Below are positions 1,869-16,282 of a stretch of 20,589 nt of DNA, one piece after another. The stretch's first letter is position 1. Each line of letters opens with the position of its first letter. Origin of the DNA: a virus. Below the pieces are notes generated by a model, which worked only from the letters and a program-made list of their open reading frames with translations, had not been told where the DNA came from and did no database searches. The stretch lies in IMG/VR virus record IMGVR_UViG_3300048813_000201, positions 1 through 20,589 of that record; one strand, given 5' to 3'. A program made the position numbers and the translations under genes.

Positions 1869-2642
1869 ATGGGTAAAGAAACAACGATTTCCTGGACTGA
1901 CCACACTTTCAACCCATGGCAAGGGTGTACCGAGGTTTCTCCCGGCTGCGATAACTGCTATGCGAGAGTTCTCGACAGCCGCTGGGGCGGTCCATCGCAC
2001 TGGGGAAAGGGAGTTCCGCGGCAGACGCGCGGCGACGACTACTGGAAACAGCCTGTCAAATGGAACGCCGTCGCAGCAAGGGCGGATAGGCGCGAGACGG
2101 TATTCTGTGCGTCGATGGCTGATGTGATGGATGATGAAGCTCCTGAAGGCCAGCGCGAGCGTCTATGGGAGTTGATCGACCAGACGCCCAATCTCGTTTG
2201 GCAGTTGCTCACTAAGCGGCCAACACGCTACACGCAATATCTGCCAACAGAAGGCTTTAAGCATGGCAATGTGTGGCTCGGAACCAGTGCAGAGAATCAG
2301 CACTTCTACGAGATCCGGTGGCCGGTGCTTCGCATCGTCGCGCGAGACTTTGACCTACTCTCTTTCGTGAGCTACGAACCGGCGCTGGGGCCGCTTCGCA
2401 TTCTTGATCTATGGAGAAGGGATGGCGGTAGTCCTGAATGGCTGATCTGCGGTGGGGAAAGCGGAGATGGTCGGCGCCCTATGAGCCAAGAATGGGCTGA
2501 GGATGTTGCCTCGGATTGCGAGATTACCGGCACGAAGTTCTGGATGAAGCAGATGAGCGCGCGGACTCCTAATGCCGGCGCGAAGTTGATTCCAGCACAT
2601 CTTTTGATCAGACAGAAGCCAATACTGGGAGTGTGGGAATGA
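1869..2642 (+). CDS. DUF5131 / phage Gp37-Gp68 family, radical-SAM-like protein
   Basis: This 257-aa protein starts at the ATG preceded by GGAAAGGAAC. The N-terminus carries the family signature WTDHTFNPWQGC, followed by a C-x6-C-x2-C cluster (Cys20, Cys27, Cys30; GCTEVSPGCDNCYA), which resembles an iron-sulfur/SAM site. Further family blocks are VFCASMADVMDD, WQLLTKRPTR, VWLGTSAENQ, SYEPALGPL, WLICGGESGDGRRPM and a KFWMKQM stretch. These proteins are common in phages and mobile elements. Their substrate is not established, and a nucleic-acid or nucleotide modification is only an inference. Its last codon overlaps the ATG of the next gene (aATGA), so translation is probably coupled. The 13-mer ACGGAAAGGAACG in its leader (1855-1867) also occurs before the integrase (11393-11405). 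Confidence 0.85.
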   Translation: MGKETTISWTDHTFNPWQGCTEVSPGCDNCYARVLDSRWGGPSHWGKGVPRQTRGDDYWKQPVKWNAVAARADRRETVFCASMADVMDDEAPEGQRERLWELIDQTPNLVWQLLTKRPTRYTQYLPTEGFKHGNVWLGTSAENQHFYEIRWPVLRIVARDFDLLSFVSYEPALGPLRILDLWRRDGGSPEWLICGGESGDGRRPMSQEWAEDVASDCEITGTKFWMKQMSARTPNAGAKLIPAHLLIRQKPILGVWE

Positions 2643-5656: not shown

Positions 5657-5859
5657 CCCTCTTCAACATCTTCGTCTCCGAACTCAAGCGCAGCCCGACC
5701 CTCATCATCTCCCGTCAGACGATGAACGGCGTGTACCCGGATCGGCCTGCGACAGACGCAGCGAACGCATTGGCTGAGGCTACGGATACGGAAGTCTTCG
5801 TGGACGACAATGGCAACTTTCAATTCAACCCAGTGGAGAAAGGAACGCATCATGGATAA
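5653..5859 (+). CDS. Hypothetical small phage protein
   Basis: A 68-aa protein is translationally coupled to the nuclease (ATGA), and its end overlaps the start of the next gene by 8 nt. It shows a short beta segment (SPTLIISRQTMNGVYPDRP), a helix rich in Ala, and an acidic end (EVFVDDNGNFQF). No family is recognised. The overlaps on both sides support it as a real gene. Confidence 0.6.
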   Translation: MTLFNIFVSELKRSPTLIISRQTMNGVYPDRPATDAANALAEATDTEVFVDDNGNFQFNPVEKGTHHG

Positions 5860-7264
5860 TACACAGCAACTGCTCGCCTGCCTGAAGCCGGTCGAGTCTT
5901 CGATGTTCAGCAAGGCTGGCTACTCCGAGGATTACTGGACGCTGGTTCTGGCTTTCAAGTCCAGCAAAGAGATCAAGGCCTACAAGAACTGCGCGCCGGA
6001 GGTGGCCGACGAGGCGCTGAGTTCGCCTTCTTTGGGTAAATGGTGGAACGCCAACATCAAAGGCAATCCCGCATGGGAAGCCGAGGTTATCGGCGTTGAC
6101 GAGCCTGTGCCGGTCGAGAAGGCGAAGACGACAGAGACGAAATTGGGTGTGATCGACGAGGACATCAAACTCTGCGAACCGGGTTGGGACGGCGAGAAGA
6201 TTGTGCGGACCACGGTGACACAGGTGCAGTCCGGCAAGATCGTCAACGGCGAGTCTGTTCCTTTTGGACCCGAGGATGTGTTTACCGGGCCGGTGACGGT
6301 GAGTGCGCAGCAAGTGGATCGAGTTGATATTTACCGCGATAACTTCGATGGAACATACACTCCTATTGAAGGCGGAATTGACATCGGACCTACCGCTATC
6401 ACCCAACAGACCCAAGGTGAACTCTTGGGCGCGTGGACGGCGCCGGAATCAGCAGCAGAGTGTTTAGATTTGATGGCAGAACGGGCCGCTGAAATCAAAG
6501 CCATCATCGCCCAATCAAAGTCAACCGGCGAGCAGGCGCTGACCGTGCGCGTGACGGATGCCGATTCACATAAGGCGGCGAGTGAGACGCTGGCGACTTT
6601 GGTCAAAAAGAAGGATACGACAACGGCGCTATTGGAGCCGTTCCGAGTTGCCCTTTTTTCCGCCTACGAGGAAGCGCGCAGCTACAAGACTGCCGCGCTT
6701 ACTCCGCTGGAGGCTGGGGAAAAGCACATTAAACTGCAACTGACCACGTATACCACGGCGCAAGAGCGCATTCGGCAACAGAAGATCCGCGAAGACAACG
6801 AGCGGCGTGAGCGCGAGGCCCGGGAATTACAGGAAGCGGAGGCGGCCAGGATCAAACTCGCCGATGTGCAGGACGCGATCGACGAAGGCGACGAGCAGCG
6901 AGCCCAAACCTTGTTCGATGCTCCGGCAATCCAGGTTCCCCGTCCATATATCGCGCCGACGTATATCGCGCCCGCCGCGCCGAAAGTCGAAGGTCAGAGC
7001 ACCTCGACGACGTGGAAGGTGGACCGCAGCCTGGTCGAGGACGACGAAACCGGACAGGCCTATGTTGCGAGCATCACGAAGTTGCTGGCGGCCGTCAAGC
7101 ACGGAACCTTCCCCATCGAGCAGGCGGCGCAGTTGCTGCAGTGGGATTTCTCGGCTGCGGATAAACTTGCGGGAGCGCTCATGGCTGCATTTTCGGTTCC
7201 GGGCTTGCAGGCTGGACCGCAATCGACGCTGAGGGTTAGCCGGGGGAGGAAGAAGAAGACGTAG
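5852..7264 (+). CDS. KTSC-headed coiled-coil phage protein of unknown function
   Basis: This 470-aa protein starts at the ATG preceded by GAGAAAGGAACG. An upstream in-frame start at 5810 would overlap the previous gene more and lacks support. Residues about 14-70 (SSMFSKAGYSEDYWTLVLAF, then GKWWNANIKG) match the KTSC domain pattern. Residues about 210-330 form long charged helices, with an Arg/Glu coiled coil (RIRQQKIREDNERREREARE). The C-terminal part (YIAPAAPKVEGQSTSTTWKV, a helical segment, then SVPGLQ and a Lys/Arg tail) is a pattern seen in many phage proteins annotated only as hypothetical. Function is unknown. A DNA recombination or replication accessory role fits the neighbours. Confidence 0.75.
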   Translation: MDNTQQLLACLKPVESSMFSKAGYSEDYWTLVLAFKSSKEIKAYKNCAPEVADEALSSPSLGKWWNANIKGNPAWEAEVIGVDEPVPVEKAKTTETKLGVIDEDIKLCEPGWDGEKIVRTTVTQVQSGKIVNGESVPFGPEDVFTGPVTVSAQQVDRVDIYRDNFDGTYTPIEGGIDIGPTAITQQTQGELLGAWTAPESAAECLDLMAERAAEIKAIIAQSKSTGEQALTVRVTDADSHKAASETLATLVKKKDTTTALLEPFRVALFSAYEEARSYKTAALTPLEAGEKHIKLQLTTYTTAQERIRQQKIREDNERREREARELQEAEAARIKLADVQDAIDEGDEQRAQTLFDAPAIQVPRPYIAPTYIAPAAPKVEGQSTSTTWKVDRSLVEDDETGQAYVASITKLLAAVKHGTFPIEQAAQLLQWDFSAADKLAGALMAAFSVPGLQAGPQSTLRVSRGRKKKT

Positions 7265-7389: not shown

Positions 7390-7614
7390 ATGCAAACAGG
7401 CACAGTAGTAACATGGAGCGATCCGAAGGGCTGGGGATTCATCAAGCCGGACCGGGGGGACAAGGATTTTTTTGTTCATTACTCGCACGTCCAGTCGGAC
7501 GATGATTTCAAGTCACTTATGAAGGGTGATCGAGTATCTTTCGAGGTGGAACCCGGTCCCAACAATAGACCCCAGGCGGTAAGAGTCTCAATTCTTGAAA
7601 AGGCGGTGGCGTAA
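7390..7614 (+). CDS. Cold-shock domain protein (CspA family)
   Basis: A 74-aa single cold-shock domain carries the RNP1 motif KGWGFIKPD (residues 13-21) and RNP2 DFFVHYS (26-32), then KGDRVSFEVEPG and a C-terminal strand. It binds single-stranded RNA or DNA, melting structure or protecting strands. In a phage it may aid replication or translation. ATG 7390 was chosen because it gives the canonical MQTGTV start and is preceded by AGGAGA at good distance. The frame is open upstream to GTG 7273 (39 extra codons, Arg/Thr-rich), but that extension looks non-native. Its stop abuts the ATG of the KTSC gene. Confidence 0.9.
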   Translation: MQTGTVVTWSDPKGWGFIKPDRGDKDFFVHYSHVQSDDDFKSLMKGDRVSFEVEPGPNNRPQAVRVSILEKAVA

Positions 7615-7833
7615 ATGGCAGAGCAGCAGTTGAATCTCAAGGCATCGGCGAACGTGAAGGGTGCGAGTTACGATCCCGACACGATGACACTCACGGTCCA
7701 GCTCAACGGCGGGACGTATGCCTATCAGGGTGTCTCCGTCGAGAAGGCTCAGGCATTTGCGGATGCTGACTCGCATGGGACATTCCTGCATTCGCAGATC
7801 AAAGGGCAGCACACGTTCAGCAAGATCGGATAG
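7615..7833 (+). CDS. Stand-alone KTSC-domain protein
   Basis: This 72-aa protein is essentially one KTSC domain: SANVKGASYDPDTMTLTVQL, a GGTYAYQGVS turn, and the C-terminal GTFLHSQIKG. KTSC domains are short beta-rich modules often found next to or fused to lysyl-tRNA synthetase-like or phage proteins. Their role is not settled, and RNA or DNA contact is only suggested. The gene begins immediately after the cold-shock stop codon. It is a second copy of the domain that heads the 5852-7264 protein, with matching landmarks (aromatic-rich strands and a terminal IKG). Confidence 0.85.
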   Translation: MAEQQLNLKASANVKGASYDPDTMTLTVQLNGGTYAYQGVSVEKAQAFADADSHGTFLHSQIKGQHTFSKIG

Positions 7834-7836
7834 TCA

Positions 7837-9279
7837 TTGACCATCGACGACTACAGCCTACCCGACAGCGTGCCCGAGCCGCCTCCAGACAGCAGACACG
7901 CGCCATTGCCCGATGATCGACGCCGGGTGATGCCTGTTGGAATTGCCAACGACATAGGACTGCCGGCCAACATTGACGCGGAGAAGACGATCCTCGGGGC
8001 GATCTTGCTCGACAATCAAGCCTTCAATGAGGCAGCCGAGCGCCTGGAACCAGAGGATTTCTCACTCGACAGCCATCGCCGCATCTTTCTTCGTATGGCC
8101 GACCTGATGGACGCGAATCAGGCGGTGGACATCGTGACGTTGGCGAATGAACTGGCGCGGATGAAGGAGGTAGAGTCGATTGGGGGTGTCGCGTACTTGG
8201 CTTCGTTGACGGAGGGACTTCCGCGGCGACCGGTGATCGACAACTATATCCGCATCGTTAAAGATAAGTCCGCCCTCCGCCGGATCATGGGCATCTGTTC
8301 TCTGGCCATTGCGCGAGCTGCGGAGCAGAGCGAATCGGCGCTGGAAGTGCTTGAAGCAGCCGAGAGTTCGCTGTTGGAGATTGCGCAGGGAGCCAACGTC
8401 GGCAAGCTCAAGACCATCTTCGAATCCGTCAAAGAGGCCGGGGGGATGGATGCTTATATCCAGAAATATACGGACCCCGACATAAAGCCTGGCCTGCTGA
8501 CGGGATTCCATGAGTACGACCTAAAGACTGGCGGACTGCAGAAGTCGGAATTGACGATTATTGCGGCGCGACCTGGGGCTGGAAAAAGCGCGTTGATGCT
8601 GAATATCGCCGAGAATGTTGGCATTGGCACAGATAATGTAGTCGCCATCTTCAGCCTCGAGATGTCGAGACCTCAACTCGAATGCCGCATGATGGCATCG
8701 AAGGCGTGGGTTAACGTTCACAAGGCGATGGAAGGCATTTACCTTGGCCGGGAAGAGAAAGTGAAACTACAGACTGCGCTTGGTCATTTAGTCGAAACCA
8801 ACATCTACATCGACGATTCAGCAACACTCACTCCAGTTCAATTACGAGCAAAGTGCCGGAGATTAAAGCAAAGAGCAAAGCGGCTCGATCTGGTACTCAT
8901 CGACTATTTGACTCTCATGTCGGCTGGCTCGCGCACTGGATCTCGCGAACAAGAGATTGCGCTTATTTCTCGCTCACTGAAACAGTGTGCGAAAGAACTC
9001 GAAGTGCCCGTAGTTGCTCTGGCGCAACTTAATCGCAACCCGGAAGCTCGACAAGATAAACGCCCGATGCTCTCTGATCTTAGAGAGAGCGGACAGATCG
9101 AACAAGACGCCGATGTTGTAGTTTTCGTCCACAGACCCAGCATGTACGATCCCGATAACCCTGATTTACAGGGGCTTGCGGAACTGATTTTGGCAAAGCA
9201 AAGATCGGGTCCTACTGGCGTAATTAAACTGGCATTTGTTAGTCAACACACACGATTCGACAACCTCGCAAGGAGCTAA
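7837..9279 (+). CDS. dnaB: Replicative DNA helicase, DnaB family
   Basis: This 480-aa protein has the full DnaB layout. The N-terminal helical domain begins near residue 44 (NIDAEKTILGAILLDN, the usual DnaB start pattern). After the linker, the RecA-like motor has Walker A ARPGAGKSAL (Lys250), SLEMSRPQLECRMM, Walker B LVLIDYLTLM, LAQLNR, LSDLRESGQIEQDADVV, and the C-terminal AKQRSGPTGVIKLAF-TRF. DnaB is a hexameric 5'-3' helicase that unwinds the fork and calls in primase. The start is uncertain. TTG 7837 lies 3 nt after the KTSC stop and gives a Pro-rich N-tail. ATG 7930 would give a protein starting close to the canonical domain. No loader or primase is recognisable nearby. Confidence 0.95.
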   Translation: MTIDDYSLPDSVPEPPPDSRHAPLPDDRRRVMPVGIANDIGLPANIDAEKTILGAILLDNQAFNEAAERLEPEDFSLDSHRRIFLRMADLMDANQAVDIVTLANELARMKEVESIGGVAYLASLTEGLPRRPVIDNYIRIVKDKSALRRIMGICSLAIARAAEQSESALEVLEAAESSLLEIAQGANVGKLKTIFESVKEAGGMDAYIQKYTDPDIKPGLLTGFHEYDLKTGGLQKSELTIIAARPGAGKSALMLNIAENVGIGTDNVVAIFSLEMSRPQLECRMMASKAWVNVHKAMEGIYLGREEKVKLQTALGHLVETNIYIDDSATLTPVQLRAKCRRLKQRAKRLDLVLIDYLTLMSAGSRTGSREQEIALISRSLKQCAKELEVPVVALAQLNRNPEARQDKRPMLSDLRESGQIEQDADVVVFVHRPSMYDPDNPDLQGLAELILAKQRSGPTGVIKLAFVSQHTRFDNLARS

Positions 9280-9280
9280 C

Positions 9281-9514
9281 ATGGACATAGAATCCAAAAT
9301 CCGCAACATCCTCATCAACGACTACGACTGCGATCCCGACACATTGCAGTTATCCGACACCCTGGTAGCCGACCTGGGCATGGACTCGATAGAACTAGCC
9401 GAGTTCGGCTTATCACTGGAAGAGGCCTTCGACGTGGAAGTGCTGGACGATGCGATCACCCAGACCATGACGGTTGGCGAAGTGGTCAACAAGATCAAAG
9501 AGTTGAAAGGTTGA
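9281..9514 (+). CDS. Acyl carrier protein
   Basis: This 77-aa acidic protein has the size and sequence pattern of a type II acyl carrier protein: an N-terminal helix, then LSDTLVADLGMDSIELAEF with the phosphopantetheine-accepting serine at residue 36 (DSIE, equivalent to the DSLD of Escherichia coli AcpP), EEAFDVEVLDD, and a final helix (MTVGEVVNKIKEL). AGGAG lies 6 nt before the ATG. It begins 1 nt after the helicase stop and ends 1 nt before the next gene. Carrier proteins hold acyl or amino-acyl groups as thioesters for synthases. No ketosynthase, adenylation enzyme or phosphopantetheinyl transferase is visible here, so it would need host partners. Confidence 0.9.
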   Translation: MDIESKIRNILINDYDCDPDTLQLSDTLVADLGMDSIELAEFGLSLEEAFDVEVLDDAITQTMTVGEVVNKIKELKG

Positions 9515-9515
9515 T

Positions 9516-10112
9516 ATGCGCCAACACTGTGAAAGATGCGGTCGCCGGTACGACGACGAGCACTGCTCAACAATTTGTCCGCACCGTGGAATGGGCTTCT
9601 GCCCAGTCTGCGACTGCGTAATCTGCGTCTGCGATCCGAAGTACACCCGCGACTGGGAGCGCAGTTCAAACAACAATGCACCACCAACAGACGAGAGGAG
9701 CAATACCATGCCTGGAAGCAATGACCCGAACTTTGACGCCTACAACGCAAAGCAGAGTGAAGCCGCAACCGCCGACACTTCCGCAACCGATGCAGCCCTG
9801 AAATCGCTTGGAGCGAAGATCGAGGCTCTTCAAAACACCGACTCTGAGGCGCATCCTCATACCCACAGCGCCGACCTCCGCAGCTTCACTCAAGTGGAAA
9901 TCTCAAATTGGTTCTCGTACCACGCCCCGACGCCGGAGCAGATCATTCAATATGGCGAGATCCGCACGGCAGCCAAAATCTTCGCAGAGACCATCAACAG
10001 GCATGTCCCGGCTGGCGCTGACAAGACGGCGGCGATGCGAGACCTCCGCAAGACCGTGATGGCGGCGAATCTGGCCATCGCCTGCTACGTCGAGCCAGTC
10101 AAAAACGTCTGA
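9516..10112 (+). CDS. Zinc-knuckle protein with C-terminal Acb2/Tad1-like hairpin domain (candidate anti-CBASS/anti-Thoeris sponge)
   Basis: The 198-aa product has two parts. Residues 1-45 are Cys-rich (Cys5, 8, 17, 21, 29, 32, 34, 37, 39; CERCGRRYDDEHC, ICPH, CPVCDCVICVC) and should bind zinc. After a low-complexity linker, residues about 130-190 read NWFSYHAPTPEQ, YGEIRTAAKIFAETI, a Pro turn, then DKTAAMRDLRKTVMAANLAIAC. That is the two-helix pattern I recognise from the Acb2/Tad1 hairpin family, in which phage proteins sequester the cyclic nucleotides or gcADPR-type signals of CBASS and Thoeris. ATG 9516 has AAAGG 5 nt upstream. A second in-frame ATG (9708) has its own strong ribosome site, so a short 134-aa form without the zinc part is likely too. 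Family call by eye; ligand unknown. Confidence 0.7.
   Translation: MRQHCERCGRRYDDEHCSTICPHRGMGFCPVCDCVICVCDPKYTRDWERSSNNNAPPTDERSNTMPGSNDPNFDAYNAKQSEAATADTSATDAALKSLGAKIEALQNTDSEAHPHTHSADLRSFTQVEISNWFSYHAPTPEQIIQYGEIRTAAKIFAETINRHVPAGADKTAAMRDLRKTVMAANLAIACYVEPVKNV
9693..9710 (+). promoter_or_regulatory. Internal ribosome binding site and second start in the Acb2/Tad1-like gene
   Basis: GAGAGGAG (9693-9700) sits 7 nt before an in-frame ATG at 9708, inside the Acb2/Tad1-like gene. This is stronger than the site before ATG 9516. It would yield a 134-aa protein holding only the linker and the hairpin domain. Either two isoforms are made, or the Cys-rich upstream part was once a separate gene that fused in frame. 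Confidence 0.6.
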
Positions 10113-10185
10113 CACCATGCCGAAGTCCGACTGGCGCAATCTTCAGGCCTACCACCAACTTCAACTTCAAAAGGAAAGGGGACTT

Positions 10186-10545
10186 ATGTCCACAGCAACA
10201 TCGTTCGACACTCAGGCGCTGGAGCAGACGAGCAATTCAGCGCCAGTAATGCAGCCAACATTGTCAGCCCCGCACGGCAATCCCAATCCGCCGGCACCGC
10301 CCGCTCGCAAAGAGCGTAAACCTCGCTCCGACGCCGGCAAGCCTAACCCGCTCCGTGCCAACCGTGGCGCATCCAAGTTCAACCTGGAGGCCAATCTGTT
10401 TACTCCAGTCGGCCGCGAGACGTTGAAGTTCTGGATTCACAACGGATTCGCGGAAGAGGCGATGGAAGTCGTTGATCGGCTGCTGGTCGTCACGCAAGAG
10501 ACGAAGGCGTTGCTCGACGATCTGGCGGAGCAGAAGAAGAAGTAG
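10186..10545 (+). CDS. Hypothetical Pro/Lys-rich phage protein with helical C-terminus
   Basis: This 119-aa protein starts at ATG 10186, preceded by AAGGAAAGGGG. An in-frame ATG at 10117, without a ribosome site, would add 23 residues (MPKSDWRNLQAYHQLQLQKE). The N-terminal half is disordered and rich in Pro, Ala and basic residues (PNPPAPPARKERKPRSD). The C-terminal half is helical (FTPVGRETLKFWIHNGFAEE, then AMEVVDRLLVV) and ends in a Lys cluster. The layout of a basic disordered tail plus a helical hairpin suggests nucleic-acid or protein binding, but no family is recognised. Confidence 0.65.
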   Translation: MSTATSFDTQALEQTSNSAPVMQPTLSAPHGNPNPPAPPARKERKPRSDAGKPNPLRANRGASKFNLEANLFTPVGRETLKFWIHNGFAEEAMEVVDRLLVVTQETKALLDDLAEQKKK

Positions 10546-10628
10546 GATTCCATCCGAGTTCCCCGCGAGGATGGTTCGATGGCGGTCAGTGAGGCGCGAT
10601 CATTGGCCGCTGTCAGAAATGAGGATTT

Positions 10629-10868
10629 ATGGGAAAAGACATCACGAAGCAGGAACGCGAATTCATCACCATGATTGCTCTCGGCAATCGGTCGATACTG
10701 ACTTTAATTCTTGATCATTGCGAGTCGTCTGTATGCAAGGTGCCTGGCGCCCACGCGATGCTTGTGGAGGTAGCGAAACTCCGAGTTAAAGTGGCGGCAT
10801 TGGAACCGATCACGGACCCGGTTAAGAAGGGGGAGTCACCTTATTGGGATTTGGAGAGGTGGTGGTGA
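10629..10868 (+). CDS. Hypothetical small helical phage protein
   Basis: This 79-aa protein has a TGAGG ribosome site just before its ATG. It is mostly helical (KQEREFITMIALGNRSILTL, HAMLVEVAKLRVKVAALEP) and ends in a Trp-rich tail (YWDLERWW). No family is recognised. The stop overlaps the GTG start of the next gene (GTGA), which supports both. The 83 nt before it (10546-10628) hold no gene I can support. Confidence 0.6.
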   Translation: MGKDITKQEREFITMIALGNRSILTLILDHCESSVCKVPGAHAMLVEVAKLRVKVAALEPITDPVKKGESPYWDLERWW

Positions 10869-11347
10869 GTATGTACTACTGGCTGCAGAATCGCAAAATG
10901 GAACTCGCGGACCTCTGGGATCGTTTCCGTCCGCGCGAATGGCGACCGATAATCAAACACTGGCTGTGGGACCGGAAAATGGGCCAGCGCAAATCGGAAA
11001 CTGAGATGTGGCAATGGGCTGATGTCTCCGTGAATGGCGTGTGGGGTAAGCGTATCAAGGTCTTTAGCAGACCGCGCAATTGGCAGCAGATGCTGGTCTG
11101 CCTGGAGTTAGCAGAGTCAAATTCTGATGCCTCACGTCTTCTCAAAACTGGATCTTTCGAGATGAGGGATTGGTGCTTAGATAAGTCGTGGGAAAAAGTT
11201 ACTCTGAACACTCCACTTCCAGATAGTCCAACACATCTCCGTCGCGGCAAGAAACTATACGGCATCAAAACAGTGTGGCTTCCGCCTGCCGGAATAAGTG
11301 AGAAGCAGGGAGAAGAGATGTTGCGAGAGTATGCCTTGAAAATATAG
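10865..11347 (+). CDS. Hypothetical Trp-rich phage protein
   Basis: A protein of about 160 aa starts at GTG 10865, coupled to the previous stop. ATG 10871 two codons later is an alternative. It is unusually rich in Trp, Lys and Arg (LWDRFRPREWRPIIKHWLWD, EMWQWADVSVNGVWGKRIKV). No motif is recognised, and no signal peptide or membrane segment is seen. Its final bases overlap the first copy of the 13-bp repeat before the integrase. Confidence 0.6.
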   Translation: MSMYYWLQNRKMELADLWDRFRPREWRPIIKHWLWDRKMGQRKSETEMWQWADVSVNGVWGKRIKVFSRPRNWQQMLVCLELAESNSDASRLLKTGSFEMRDWCLDKSWEKVTLNTPLPDSPTHLRRGKKLYGIKTVWLPPAGISEKQGEEMLREYALKI

Positions 11348-11388
11348 TTGCAAGCGTGATCCTTTGTGTTGTAATGTTGCAAGCGTGA
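11347..11388 (+). repeat. 13-bp direct repeat flanking the integrase promoter (candidate operators)
   Basis: GTTGCAAGCGTGA occurs exactly twice, at 11347-11359 and 11376-11388, 29 bp apart start to start. Flanking bases differ, so the repeat is precisely 13 bp, and it holds the palindrome TTGCAA. The first copy covers the -35 hexamer and the second the expected transcription start of the candidate promoter before the integrase. This layout fits binding sites for a repressor or excisionase, or integrase autoregulation. No other copy was noticed in the window. Confidence 0.6.
11348..11375 (+). promoter_or_regulatory. Candidate sigma70-type promoter of the integrase
   Basis: TTGCAA (11348-11353; 4 of 6 consensus positions) and TGTAAT (11370-11375; 5 of 6) are separated by 16 nt. 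Transcription would start near 11382, leaving a leader of about 27 nt with a GGAAAGGAAC ribosome site before ATG 11409. The -35 box lies inside the first copy of the 13-bp repeat. Confidence 0.4.
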
Positions 11389-11408
11389 CAGAACGGAAAG
11401 GAACGGAA

Positions 11409-12557
11409 ATGGCTAAAGCGAGTTTTCAGAACGGCAGCGTCATCCGAGTATCCCGCAAGGGAGTGGATTGCTGGAGGCTGCGTTACCGTCTCAACGGCAC
11501 CCAGCACAGCGACTTCATCGGCAGCATCCGCCAATATCCCACGAAGAGTTCCGCAGAGAAGGCCGCTGAAAAGATGCGGTCCCTGCTGAATAATGCGCCG
11601 ACCGAGATTATCACGATGTCCGACCTCATCGACAGGTACGAGCGCGAAGCGATGCCGGAACGAGCTGCAACGGCTGCTAGTTACAAATCCATCTTTCGCC
11701 GGATACGCGACCGCTGGGGTGCAATGCGGCTCGACCAGTTCTCGATCGACATGGTTTCTGTGGAAGTTTGGCTTCAGGAATTGACTGTGATCGGTCGCCA
11801 TCCGAAGCCGGGTCCGAAGTCGCTTGTCTCGCCGCTGTTTCGAGCGCAGATCAAGAACCTGATGCACACGCTCATCGAACACGCGATGAAGTGGGGCGCT
11901 TTGCCTGCGCAGAGGAATTGCATCGAGTTGGTCAGACTCAAAGGCGGCGCCCGAGTCAAAGACATCGTGATCCTCGACGTGGCGCAATACGCCGCTTTGC
12001 TCGACGATCCAGAATTGCCGGAAGTCGTGAAAGTCCTTATTCAATTGCTCTCAGGCCTCGGCTTAAGAATTTCCGAAGCTCTCGGCCTGCAATGGTCGGA
12101 CACTGACTTTGAGGCCGGCACCATCCAGATCCAGCGCAGCGTTGTCCACGGCCAGGCGAACGATACGAAGACGGCGAGCTCGAAGACTGTTCTGCCGCTG
12201 CATTCCAACCTCGTTGAGGTGTTGAGGGCATGGAAGGAGCGGGAGGCGTTCAAGTCTCGCTGGGTGTTCTGCTCTGAGCGGACTGGACGGCCACTGGACA
12301 GGGATTGGCTGCGTGCCGAATACTTGCAGCCTGCCGGGGAGCGGATTGGCGTTGGTGGGCTTGGCTGGCACGGACTGAGGCATCTACATCGGGCTCTGCT
12401 GCGGCAATGCGGAACTCCTATTGAGGCGCAAAAGAATCTTATGCGTCATTCAAAAATTAGCACAACTTTTGATGTGTACGGAGGTTCTGGCAAAGTCGAG
12501 GAACTCCGTCCCGTCAATGCTCGCGTAATCGAGATGTTGGCGAGAAAGCGGGCGTAA
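11409..12557 (+). CDS. int: Tyrosine recombinase (phage integrase)
   Basis: The 382-aa protein starts at the ATG with GGAAAGGAAC upstream. An N-terminal basic, strand-rich region (GSVIRVSRKGVDCWRLRYRL) looks like an arm-binding module. A helical core-binding domain follows (about 65-175, LIDRYEREAMPERAATAASY). The catalytic domain has all expected residues: Arg220 in GLGLRISEALGLQW, Lys259 in TASSKTVLPL, His321 and Arg324 in WHGLRH, His347 in MRHSKISTTF, and nucleophile Tyr357 in DVYGG. It catalyses site-specific integration or excision of the element. HRALLRQCGTPIE replaces the more usual HASLL--AG-P-K. It is followed by the pentanucleotide array. No attachment site can be named from this window. 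Confidence 0.95.
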   Translation: MAKASFQNGSVIRVSRKGVDCWRLRYRLNGTQHSDFIGSIRQYPTKSSAEKAAEKMRSLLNNAPTEIITMSDLIDRYEREAMPERAATAASYKSIFRRIRDRWGAMRLDQFSIDMVSVEVWLQELTVIGRHPKPGPKSLVSPLFRAQIKNLMHTLIEHAMKWGALPAQRNCIELVRLKGGARVKDIVILDVAQYAALLDDPELPEVVKVLIQLLSGLGLRISEALGLQWSDTDFEAGTIQIQRSVVHGQANDTKTASSKTVLPLHSNLVEVLRAWKEREAFKSRWVFCSERTGRPLDRDWLRAEYLQPAGERIGVGGLGWHGLRHLHRALLRQCGTPIEAQKNLMRHSKISTTFDVYGGSGKVEELRPVNARVIEMLARKRA

Positions 12558-12567
12558 CACTTTTTGC

Positions 12568-12769
12568 GGCACGGCACGGCATGGTGAGCAATGGTTAGGC
12601 GGGGCGGGGTCGGGTGAGGTAGGGCGTGGGCACTGAAATATGGTGCGGTTCGGCTGGCAGAGGTGTGGTAAGGTTTGGCCCGGCAGAGTTGGGAGTGGAA
12701 TGGCTGGGTTCGGTTGGGTGGTGCATGGTGTGGCTTGTTCTGGTACGGCGAACTATGGTTTGGTGAGGC
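12568..12769 (+). repeat. Degenerate pentanucleotide array, GGYNN (about 40 units)
   Basis: The stretch between the integrase and the 12822 gene carries a GG dinucleotide every 5 nt. In one phase (12568, 12573 ... 12628), 12 of 13 positions are GG. After a 14-nt break (12628 to 12642), which shifts the phase by -1, 21 of 26 positions from 12642 to 12767 are GG. In all, 33 of 39 in-phase positions are GG, and 30 of these are GGC or GGT; the last two bases of each unit vary freely. The strand is strongly G-rich and C-poor. The period is not a multiple of 3, no ribosome site precedes any frame, and translations are Gly/Trp/Val-rich noise, so it is not coding. The remaining gap (12770-12821) holds only the AAGGAGG ribosome site of the next gene. 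Confidence 0.9.
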
Positions 12770-12821
12770 TATACGTTAGCCTTGAGACGACAACAATTAA
12801 CCATCCGAAGGAGGTTGTTCT

Positions 12822-13454
12822 ATGGCAAAAGCCACGGCGATTAGCGAGCCAACAAACGATGCGTCTCAGGTGATTGACACCGAGCAACCATTCACAATTT
12901 CCTGCACAATCAAGGGAACCGCCGATCTCCTACTCCATGCGTGGAGTGTTGAGGCGGTAGCCGAGAAGTCTGCAGCCAAGAAAGGTAGCACGGGCAAGAA
13001 GACGGACAACTTGGAATCCTACGTCCGGCGAGACGAGCGCGGCGTGATCTGCATTCCATCGGAGTATTTGCGGATGAGCGTGATTGCTGCGGCAAAGTTC
13101 CGGCAAGATCCACGCAGCCCACGAAAGAGCGCAATGGATTTGTTTAAGGCTGGCGTGGTTGGCCTGACGAATCTCTCCCCCATTACCAACGTAGTCGGCG
13201 AATTGCCGAAGGTGTGGGACTTTGAGGATGCACGGAGAGTCCAAATCCAGAGAAACGGGATTACGAGGGTCCGGCCTGCGTTTCGCGCAGGGTGGGAGGC
13301 GACATTCCTGCTTGGCATCCTGCTCCCCGAATACATCAAGCCGCATGATCTTAACGAAGTAATCGCGCAGGCTGGAAGACTCGTCGGCGTCGGCGATTTC
13401 AGGCCAACATTCGGGCGATTTCAGGTCGTCAAGTTTGAAGTGGTACAGGATTGA
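12822..13454 (+). CDS. Conserved-looking phage protein of unknown function next to the GGYNN array
   Basis: This 210-aa protein has a near-perfect AAGGAGG ribosome site. Recognisable blocks are FTISCTIKGTADLLLHAWSV, a Lys-rich loop (EKSAAKKGSTGKKTD), DNLESYVRRDERGVICIPSE, YLRMSVIAAAKFRQDPRSPR, KSAMDLFKAGVVGLT, IQRNGITRVRPAFRAGWEAT and a C-terminal VGVGDFRPTFGRFQV. I recall similar proteins in phages and prophages, always unnamed. The strand-helix pattern and the Gly-rich GxGDFRPxxGRF end are reminiscent of RAMP/Cas7-type RNA-binding folds, which is a guess. The many basic residues suggest nucleic-acid binding. It heads the second gene run of the window. Confidence 0.75.
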   Translation: MAKATAISEPTNDASQVIDTEQPFTISCTIKGTADLLLHAWSVEAVAEKSAAKKGSTGKKTDNLESYVRRDERGVICIPSEYLRMSVIAAAKFRQDPRSPRKSAMDLFKAGVVGLTNLSPITNVVGELPKVWDFEDARRVQIQRNGITRVRPAFRAGWEATFLLGILLPEYIKPHDLNEVIAQAGRLVGVGDFRPTFGRFQVVKFEVVQD

Positions 13455-13515
13455 TCCTGCCAAGGTTGCGTCCGGAGAACAGCAAGGTGGTGGATATGCT
13501 CACACGGAGGTCGGC

Positions 13516-13839
13516 ATGAGCGACATTAAGCGGTACGAACTCAATCCGTTCGACGGCGAGTGCGGTATGGAAGAATCTGTGGACGGCGACTTTGTAACGT
13601 TTGAAGACCACGGCATTGTCCTCATCGAGCGCATCCAGAACGCCCTGCGTGAGGCGGCAGTTGCCACCTGCAAGCTCTGCGCCGGAGGCAACAAGTTTGT
13701 GGAGGTGGATCCGCTGCAATATTATGCTCGCGAGAATGAGCCGTGCCGCTGGTTTCATCGCTTCTCGGACACTAAAGAGATTGCCACCTCCTGCGGTGCT
13801 TACAAGATTCACGATCTCATTTCAAAGGTGAAGGCATGA
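13516..13839 (+). CDS. Hypothetical Cys-containing phage protein
   Basis: This 107-aa protein starts at ATG 13516, which has CGGAGG 5 nt upstream. The in-frame ATG at 13435 would overlap the previous gene by 20 nt and lacks a clear site. The middle has a CKLC pair, then CRWFHRF and SCGAYKIH, so a C-x2-C ... C ... H ... C zinc site is possible. The N-terminus is acidic. No family is recognised. It ends in an ATGA overlap with the next gene. Confidence 0.65.
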   Translation: MSDIKRYELNPFDGECGMEESVDGDFVTFEDHGIVLIERIQNALREAAVATCKLCAGGNKFVEVDPLQYYARENEPCRWFHRFSDTKEIATSCGAYKIHDLISKVKA

Positions 13840-14135
13840 GCACCAATAACAAATGCGACCACGTTACCGTCTCTCGGCAATGGGACACGGACGATAACTT
13901 CATTGACAAGTGGATATGTGTGCGGTGCGGAGCTGAATTCTTTCACTTCGCCCTCGACGCTCAACCCGGCAAGATCACCTTCACGCCGTCGCCGGCTGGA
14001 CCATGTACCCGCCACACATGGATGCGCTTGGCGACCGCGTGGATATCGCGAGACAGGTTGCCGAGGCGACCGGCACCGTGGTCGAGTGGACTGAGGGTGG
14101 AAGTCCGCGCTTCATGCCGAAAGACGAGGCCCTAG
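13836..14135 (+). CDS. Hypothetical small zinc-ribbon-like protein (C-terminus doubtful)
   Basis: The start overlaps the previous stop (ATGA). Residues 1-57 look natural: CDHVTVSRQWDTDD, then WICVRCGAEFFHF, a C-x-H ... C-x2-C layout that could bind one zinc. From about residue 58 on (TRHTWMRLATAWISRDRLPR and beyond) the composition is rich in Arg, Trp and Pro, as when a GC-rich gene is read out of frame. The frame of the next gene (14003-14218) uses the same DNA. Either the two genes truly overlap by 133 nt, or a frameshift here has joined and split them. Confidence 0.5.
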   Translation: MSTNNKCDHVTVSRQWDTDDNFIDKWICVRCGAEFFHFALDAQPGKITFTPSPAGPCTRHTWMRLATAWISRDRLPRRPAPWSSGLRVEVRASCRKTRP

Positions 14136-16009: not shown

Positions 16010-16282
16010 ATGGCAGAAGCCACTTACACGGTCGAGCAGGCTAAGCGGATCGTGCGCGCGCAGTATCCGCAGGCGCGATGCTGCAAAGAGGGTTACTGGG
16101 GATATGGGGTGTACGCGGGGAAAGAAGAGGATGCAGAGCGCCTTACGTCCTCAGTTATCCCCGGAATGAGTAAGAGAGAAGCGTGGAAGTCTGCCGCGGC
16201 TTTTGTGAGTAAGAGTGAGGCGTGGAAGGATGCGGCGGCGGCTTTTGTGCTCGATAGGGAGACCAGGAAAGGCACCAAATGA
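16010..16282 (+). CDS. Hypothetical small phage protein with an internal duplication
   Basis: This 90-aa protein has GAGGAGG upstream and starts directly after the VRR-NUC stop. The N-terminal part (YTVEQAKRIVRAQYPQARCC, then GYWGYGVYAG) looks like a small fold seen in phage accessory proteins. Residues 54-66 and 67-80 are near-identical units (SKREAWKSAAAFV and SKSEAWKDAAAAFV), arising from a tandem DNA duplication. The C-terminus is therefore an elongated Ala-rich helix. No function is known. Confidence 0.65.
   Translation: MAEATYTVEQAKRIVRAQYPQARCCKEGYWGYGVYAGKEEDAERLTSSVIPGMSKREAWKSAAAFVSKSEAWKDAAAAFVLDRETRKGTK
16169..16249 (+). repeat. Tandem duplication of 39/42 bp inside a coding region
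   Basis: Unit 1 (16169-16207) and unit 2 (16208-16249) both begin AGTAAGAG and end GCTTTTGTG. They differ by a few substitutions and one inserted codon (GCG). The duplication keeps the frame and repeats the SK-EAWK-AAAFV helix. Confidence 0.8.

Follow-up and report, generated by a model that had tools for sequence, protein, structure and literature searches.

The window analysed here is a 20,589-nt stretch of viral DNA (positions 1 to 20,589 of IMG/VR record IMGVR_UViG_3300048813_000201), in which an array of GGYNN pentanucleotides lies between a tyrosine integrase gene and a gene starting at 12822 (Table 1). The original prediction, made from the letters of the sequence, had pointed to a 5-nt GG period at 12568-12769 with a phase slip at 12628-12642, and had proposed that the spacing is under selection while the last two bases of each unit are free. 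The autocorrelation that it suggested as a check bears out the period: GG at lag 5 is counted 28 times in 12568-12769, whereas 5000 dinucleotide shuffles average 9.5 (sd 2.7) and never exceed 19. A chaining detector run on both strands of the whole window recovered exactly one array (12568-12771, plus strand, GG in 33 of 41 units, one slip, score 20.4; maximum of shuffle controls 6.0 in 1000 region shuffles and 5.0 in 20 whole-window shuffles), with none on the minus strand and with the slip at the predicted position. Of the 33 GG units, 30 carry a pyrimidine (C or T) at the third position, and the two positions after it are mixed. The last unit (12767) is part of the closing hairpin; no tail was seen inside the array. 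As RNA, the array folds no better than shuffled sequence (z +0.84), neither the window as a whole nor the array matched an Rfam family, and a search for a sigma-70-like promoter near the array found none. A gap of 51 nt separates the array from the downstream gene on the same strand. Elsewhere in the window, an acyl-carrier-protein-like gene (9284-9514; Pfam PP-binding, E 1.9e-9) lies directly 3′ of a dnaB-like helicase gene; a cold-shock-domain protein (E 1.8e-19) and then a KTSC-domain protein are found at 7393-7833; the protein encoded at 5810-7264 gives a second KTSC match; and a 39-nt tandem repeat in two copies (16167-16249) lies inside the ORF 16010-16282.

Table 1. Features between the integrase and the 3′ end of the vipr region of the window, with the arrays of relatives that carry a ~92-nt conserved element.
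Feature	Position	Strand	Remark
Tyrosine integrase of this phage	11403..12557	+	gene just upstream of array
First predicted vrRNA guide tract	12568..12627	+	12 GGYNN units up to slip
First-guide NN series	12568..12627	+	AC AC AT GA AT TA GG GG CG GA AG GT
Phase slip GGGCACTGAAATAT	12628..12641	+	read as boundary between guides
Second GGYNN tract	12642..12766	+	~25 units
Array-closing hairpin, candidate vrRNA 3′ tail	12765..12783	+	7-bp stem, 5-nt loop, z ~ -2.5
Ribosome-binding site of vipr, AAGGAGG	12808..12814	+	sequence
vipr, single-domain RAMP protein, 210 aa	12822..13454	+	profile and predicted fold
Small gene 3′ of vipr	13516..13839	+	no Pfam family
Arrays with ~92-nt element (relatives)	L022:1048-1406, L026:2932-3835, L027:5854-5947, L028:4770-4864, L029:2476-2569		

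The protein encoded by the 12822 gene matches no Pfam family, and its only PHROGs match is phrog_4652, of unknown function. A profile built from 21 homologues matched a single PDB sequence, 36pp, deposited as the SUSP1 Vipr protein (E=3e-9), which the 12822 sequence by itself also recovered (E=4e-8). Searches with tblastn retrieved a full-length relative with 53% identity in phage DSL-LC04 and a partial relative in the SUSP1/Suspvirus group; GGY/NN arrays lie to either side of the SUSP1 gene. Structure prediction with AlphaFold, given 31 diverse homologues as input, yielded a model with a pLDDT of 89 (52 when only 21 close homologues were supplied). The closest solved folds, among the matches listed, are the Csm3/Cas7-type RAMP subunits (Foldseek E 5e-7; VIA Z 12.3, rmsd 3.9 over 168 residues); the Foldseek structure set ends in April 2026, and 36pp was not among the matches listed. 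Judged from its profile and modelled fold, the 12822 gene is vipr, coding for a RAMP homologue. The small gene 3′ of it is a possible accessory (vap) gene; no vap gene was recognized in the window.

According to a 2026 preprint (PMC13142463), VIPR comprises a phage-encoded RAMP protein, Vipr, and vrRNAs in which 9-16 GGY/NN repeats are followed by a 3′ tail; the vrRNAs recognize double-stranded DNA via NN pairs that lie one skipped base apart, mostly with the skip at the codon wobble, and the outcome is silencing of the genes of competing phages. The preprint distinguishes seven types and reports experimental tests of the systems of SUSP1 and a P. fulva prophage (PMC13142463). VIPR can be seen as a simple relative of CRISPR. 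The window resembles these systems (SUSP1, P. fulva and 36pp) in having a RAMP protein recognizable by profile and predicted fold, in the GGY/NN array beside its gene, on the same strand and closed by a hairpin that may be a 3′ tail, in a 1-nt skip code with wobble alignment, in being phage-borne and in an apparent target in a related phage. It differs from the published systems in that the array sits between integrase and vipr, has ~37 units and one phase slip, shows no repeated tail within itself and is accompanied by no recognized vap gene; further, its first guide would read an integrase, a class of target that the preprint's main text does not name (PMC13142463). Against the 9-16 repeats of a published guide, the first tract has 12 units, and the ~25 units of the second tract probably make up at least two vrRNA guides, overlapping or lying side by side. 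By analogy with the published system, Vipr subunits would assemble along the GGYNN repeats, gripping GGY and exposing NN; the NN pairs would read the DNA target with one base skipped between pairs; and the Vipr-vrRNA complex would then silence the target gene. We read 12568-12783 as one or more VIPR guide RNAs (vrRNA) and 12822-13454 as Vipr, with the first guide reading sister-phage integrases and likely acting against integration, and give this reading a probability of about 94%. It agrees with earlier suggestions that the spacing is under selection with two bases left free, and that the array may be active as RNA and may be the footprint of a protein binding 5 nt per subunit, and the free bases of the spacing pattern would be the guide code itself. 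The statement that no function had been described for such an element is outdated, as GGY/NN vrRNAs are described in the preprint.

The association of array and vipr was then surveyed across loci. GG-5 arrays were found at all 24 viral loci with vipr homologues and, over 57 loci besides the window (the 24 viral loci, 32 bacterial genome contigs and DSL-LC04), 53 have a same-strand array close to vipr and none has one on the opposite strand; two of the array-less loci have vipr at the extreme end of the contig. The inspection of homologous loci that had been recommended thus upholds the proposed connection between the array and the basic 12822 protein. In the reverse direction, viral stretches were retrieved through the pattern (GGNNN)12 by itself, with no protein information used: a Vipr relative was present in 76 of the 120 stretches, on the same strand as the array in 76 of 76, and always within 1.5 kb (median 98 nt). 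Of 58 control contigs obtained with unrelated patterns, 0 had such a relative. A strong hairpin occurs at the array ends of relatives in 39% of cases versus 3.6% of control positions (p ~1e-8). Several viral contigs in the series L033-L152 that lack a Vipr match (e.g., L125, L126, L152) in the stretch available have many GGY/NN units; they may encode Vipr proteins of a divergent type or be truncated. Among the arrays of relatives we also observed a ~92-nt conserved element of the form TCATTYGTGTCCGCTG..hairpin..CATATG..hairpin..TAGCGATACACGAGAG, which is branched in predicted folds, has thin covariation (1 of 26 pairs), has no match in Rfam, and is a candidate vrRNA tail or processing element. 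Separately, the vipr-bearing phage contig L027 has a Type-P5 twister ribozyme above the Rfam gathering score at 2425-2501 (minus strand), and L028 a weaker, cut-off match to the same ribozyme.

The skip code could be examined directly in this clade with 93 arrays (2188 units), each 10-unit segment of which was compared with 3.6 Mb of locus sequence on both strands; the arrays were masked, and the target set left out any locus retrieved through a guide pattern of the window itself. With one base skipped, 102 segments from 10 arrays matched at least 9 of 10 units, in 52 locus pairs, all of them in other loci and none in the own locus. At the same threshold, skip-0, skip-2 and skip-3 gave 0, 1 and 4 segments, respectively, and five unit-order shuffles at skip-1 gave 0, 0, 0, 0 and 3; a smaller separate run over skips 0-2 had the same outcome. 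The main target sites, read by eye, are coding, with the skipped base at the wobble position, and encompass helicase motifs (VIPTGGGKTPV, NVNVLTTGF and KDLGYAVT), a DUF669 gene, the C-terminus of rival vipr genes and an excisionase-like gene. Where readable, the own-locus copies of target sites match fewer units. The published 1-nt skip code thus holds in this clade.

In the skip-1 reading, the first guide of the window becomes ACxACxATxGAxATxTAxGGxGGxCGxGAxAGxGT, which corresponds to the codons TTIDIYGGRDSV, the motif found at the C-terminus of sister-phage integrases, with the skip at the wobble position. Its first eight units (ACxACxATxGAxATxTAxGGxGG) have nine exact matches among viral contigs, two of which (L248 and L255) fall in close homologues of the window's integrase, where they encode the C-terminal motif TTIDIYGG. 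When sister integrases were fetched by protein similarity alone, without the guide, their homologous codons matched 9 of 12 units in each of L256, L258, L259 and L260 and 8 of 12 in L257; pooled, they match all 12 units in codon phase 0, which none of 166,217 unit-order shuffles achieved against the same pool (best 11). For the sister loci, a simple test with 8 units returned p = 5e-4 (42/82,331), and across the window and ~200 kb of sister records the skip-1 matches fall at the integrase site in 17 of 18 cases with 10 units and in 11 of 11 with 12 units. The integrase of the window itself (TTFDVYGG; site 12462-12497) agrees at 7 of 12 units, which is not far below the 8-9 of 12 in its sisters. 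Since the first-guide match ends at the slip, the slip is taken to be a boundary between vrRNAs. These correspondences indicate that the first guide reads the integrase gene family of sister phages and that its job is most likely interference with integration by sister temperate phages, where sisters at 8-9 of 12 units may or may not be silenced.

Of the competing explanations, the nearest accepts a VIPR guide array but treats the integrase reading as a coincidence with a conserved motif, the true target of the first guide being another gene. No integrase matching all 12 units was found in the collections, the best single one reaching 9 of 12; 8-unit patterns yield ~9-47 matches in the viral collection, mostly by chance; and the integrase family was picked for testing after pattern matches had pointed to integrases. 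This coincidence would nonetheless have to extend over all 12 codons of the pooled sisters, in phase and beyond any of the unit-order shuffles, in a family retrieved without the guide, and with virtually no other skip-1 match in ~200 kb of sister sequence, and we regard it as unlikely.

Two further explanations leave out the guide function, and both appear to us highly improbable. The window encodes a RecT-like annealing protein (414-1391), to which the original prediction had linked the 5-nt period; on this view the period would be a ruler or loading site for the protein on single-stranded DNA, at ~5 nt per subunit. Yet the arrays adjoin vipr and not recT (as in the 76 same-strand pairs above), the 16-21 kb stretches compared from two phages that encode homologues of the window's RecT contain no array, and the free bases hold a target code; because the arrays track vipr and these two phages lack one, the link to RecT is unsupported. 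Similarly, GG runs with 3-nt loops could in principle form a chain of two-layer G-quadruplexes, in RNA or single-stranded DNA, and this chain might serve the 12822 gene as a structural switch in its leader. Such a structure would require neither the pyrimidine that is seen at the third base of nearly all GG units nor any order in the last two bases, whose order here holds target information.

Returning to the VIPR guide array, an exact scan with units 3-11 gave no match. For the second tract, four patterns had no match within 3 mismatches in the sister records, and no targets for the ~25 units were found in the viral collections and sister records searched. In four viral contigs, a scaffold-like gene agrees with units 15-23 (counted from 0) at 9 of 9 units; with an estimated ~0.75 such families expected by chance, we treat this gene as a lead only. 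Matches to units 24-31 and 31-39 look like chance.

Comparison with the closest relative, L256, bears on how the unit came to be at this site. The two are ~88-92% identical in nucleotide sequence over most of 7849-12366; the identity breaks inside the integrase gene at ~12366, upstream of the first-guide codons, and resumes briefly at ~13926, so that the intervening 12366-13926 comprises the remainder of the integrase, the array and vipr. Both array and vipr are missing from L256, so that the VIPR unit has the appearance of an optional cassette 3′ of the integrase. No vipr was found in seven sister records, an empty search that is weak alone, and the stretches of the sister loci are likewise without an array. 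As a tentative extension, the cassette might have brought along a substitute 3′ end of the integrase that evades the cassette's own guide, and weapon and immunity would then form one unit excluding sister phages from the same attachment site; this reading draws on the lower count of the own integrase and on the break of identity upstream of the codons read, and we hold it to be possible rather than probable.

Beyond VIPR, the predicted RAMP fold is shared with Csm3/Cas7 of Class 1 CRISPR-Cas systems, as is, under the VIPR reading, the RNA-guided logic with periodically interrupted pairing. The period is 6 in those systems versus 5 in the window's array, and their guide is a continuous spacer, versus dinucleotides within a pentanucleotide repeat here. 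A tandem repeat scan and the absence of an Rfam match gave no CRISPR-like array in the window, and no cas family was found among the part of its protein set that was scanned. The binding sites of TRAP (trp RNA-binding attenuation protein) likewise combine a triplet with two spacer bases at a 5-nt period, in 11 repeats. They differ in their triplet and in the shortness of their arrays, and in the window the protein is a predicted RAMP and the NN are informative. VIPR is known as a system, and what is new is this VIPR locus, with one guide decoded.

These observations provide a check of the skip code in another phage clade, independent of the two bench-tested systems of the preprint (SUSP1 and P. 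fulva), in which both the length of the skip and its alignment to the wobble position were clearly set apart from three other spacings and from shuffles. GGY/NN arrays, together with the profile of this Vipr clade, locate such systems in unannotated viral contigs. In the window, the first guide can be read as a plausible rival gene, the sister-phage integrase, which raises the prospect that VIPR may block integration by related temperate phages. As this guide appears to spell a piece of sister-phage integrase, the phage itself appears to be armed against its own competitors.
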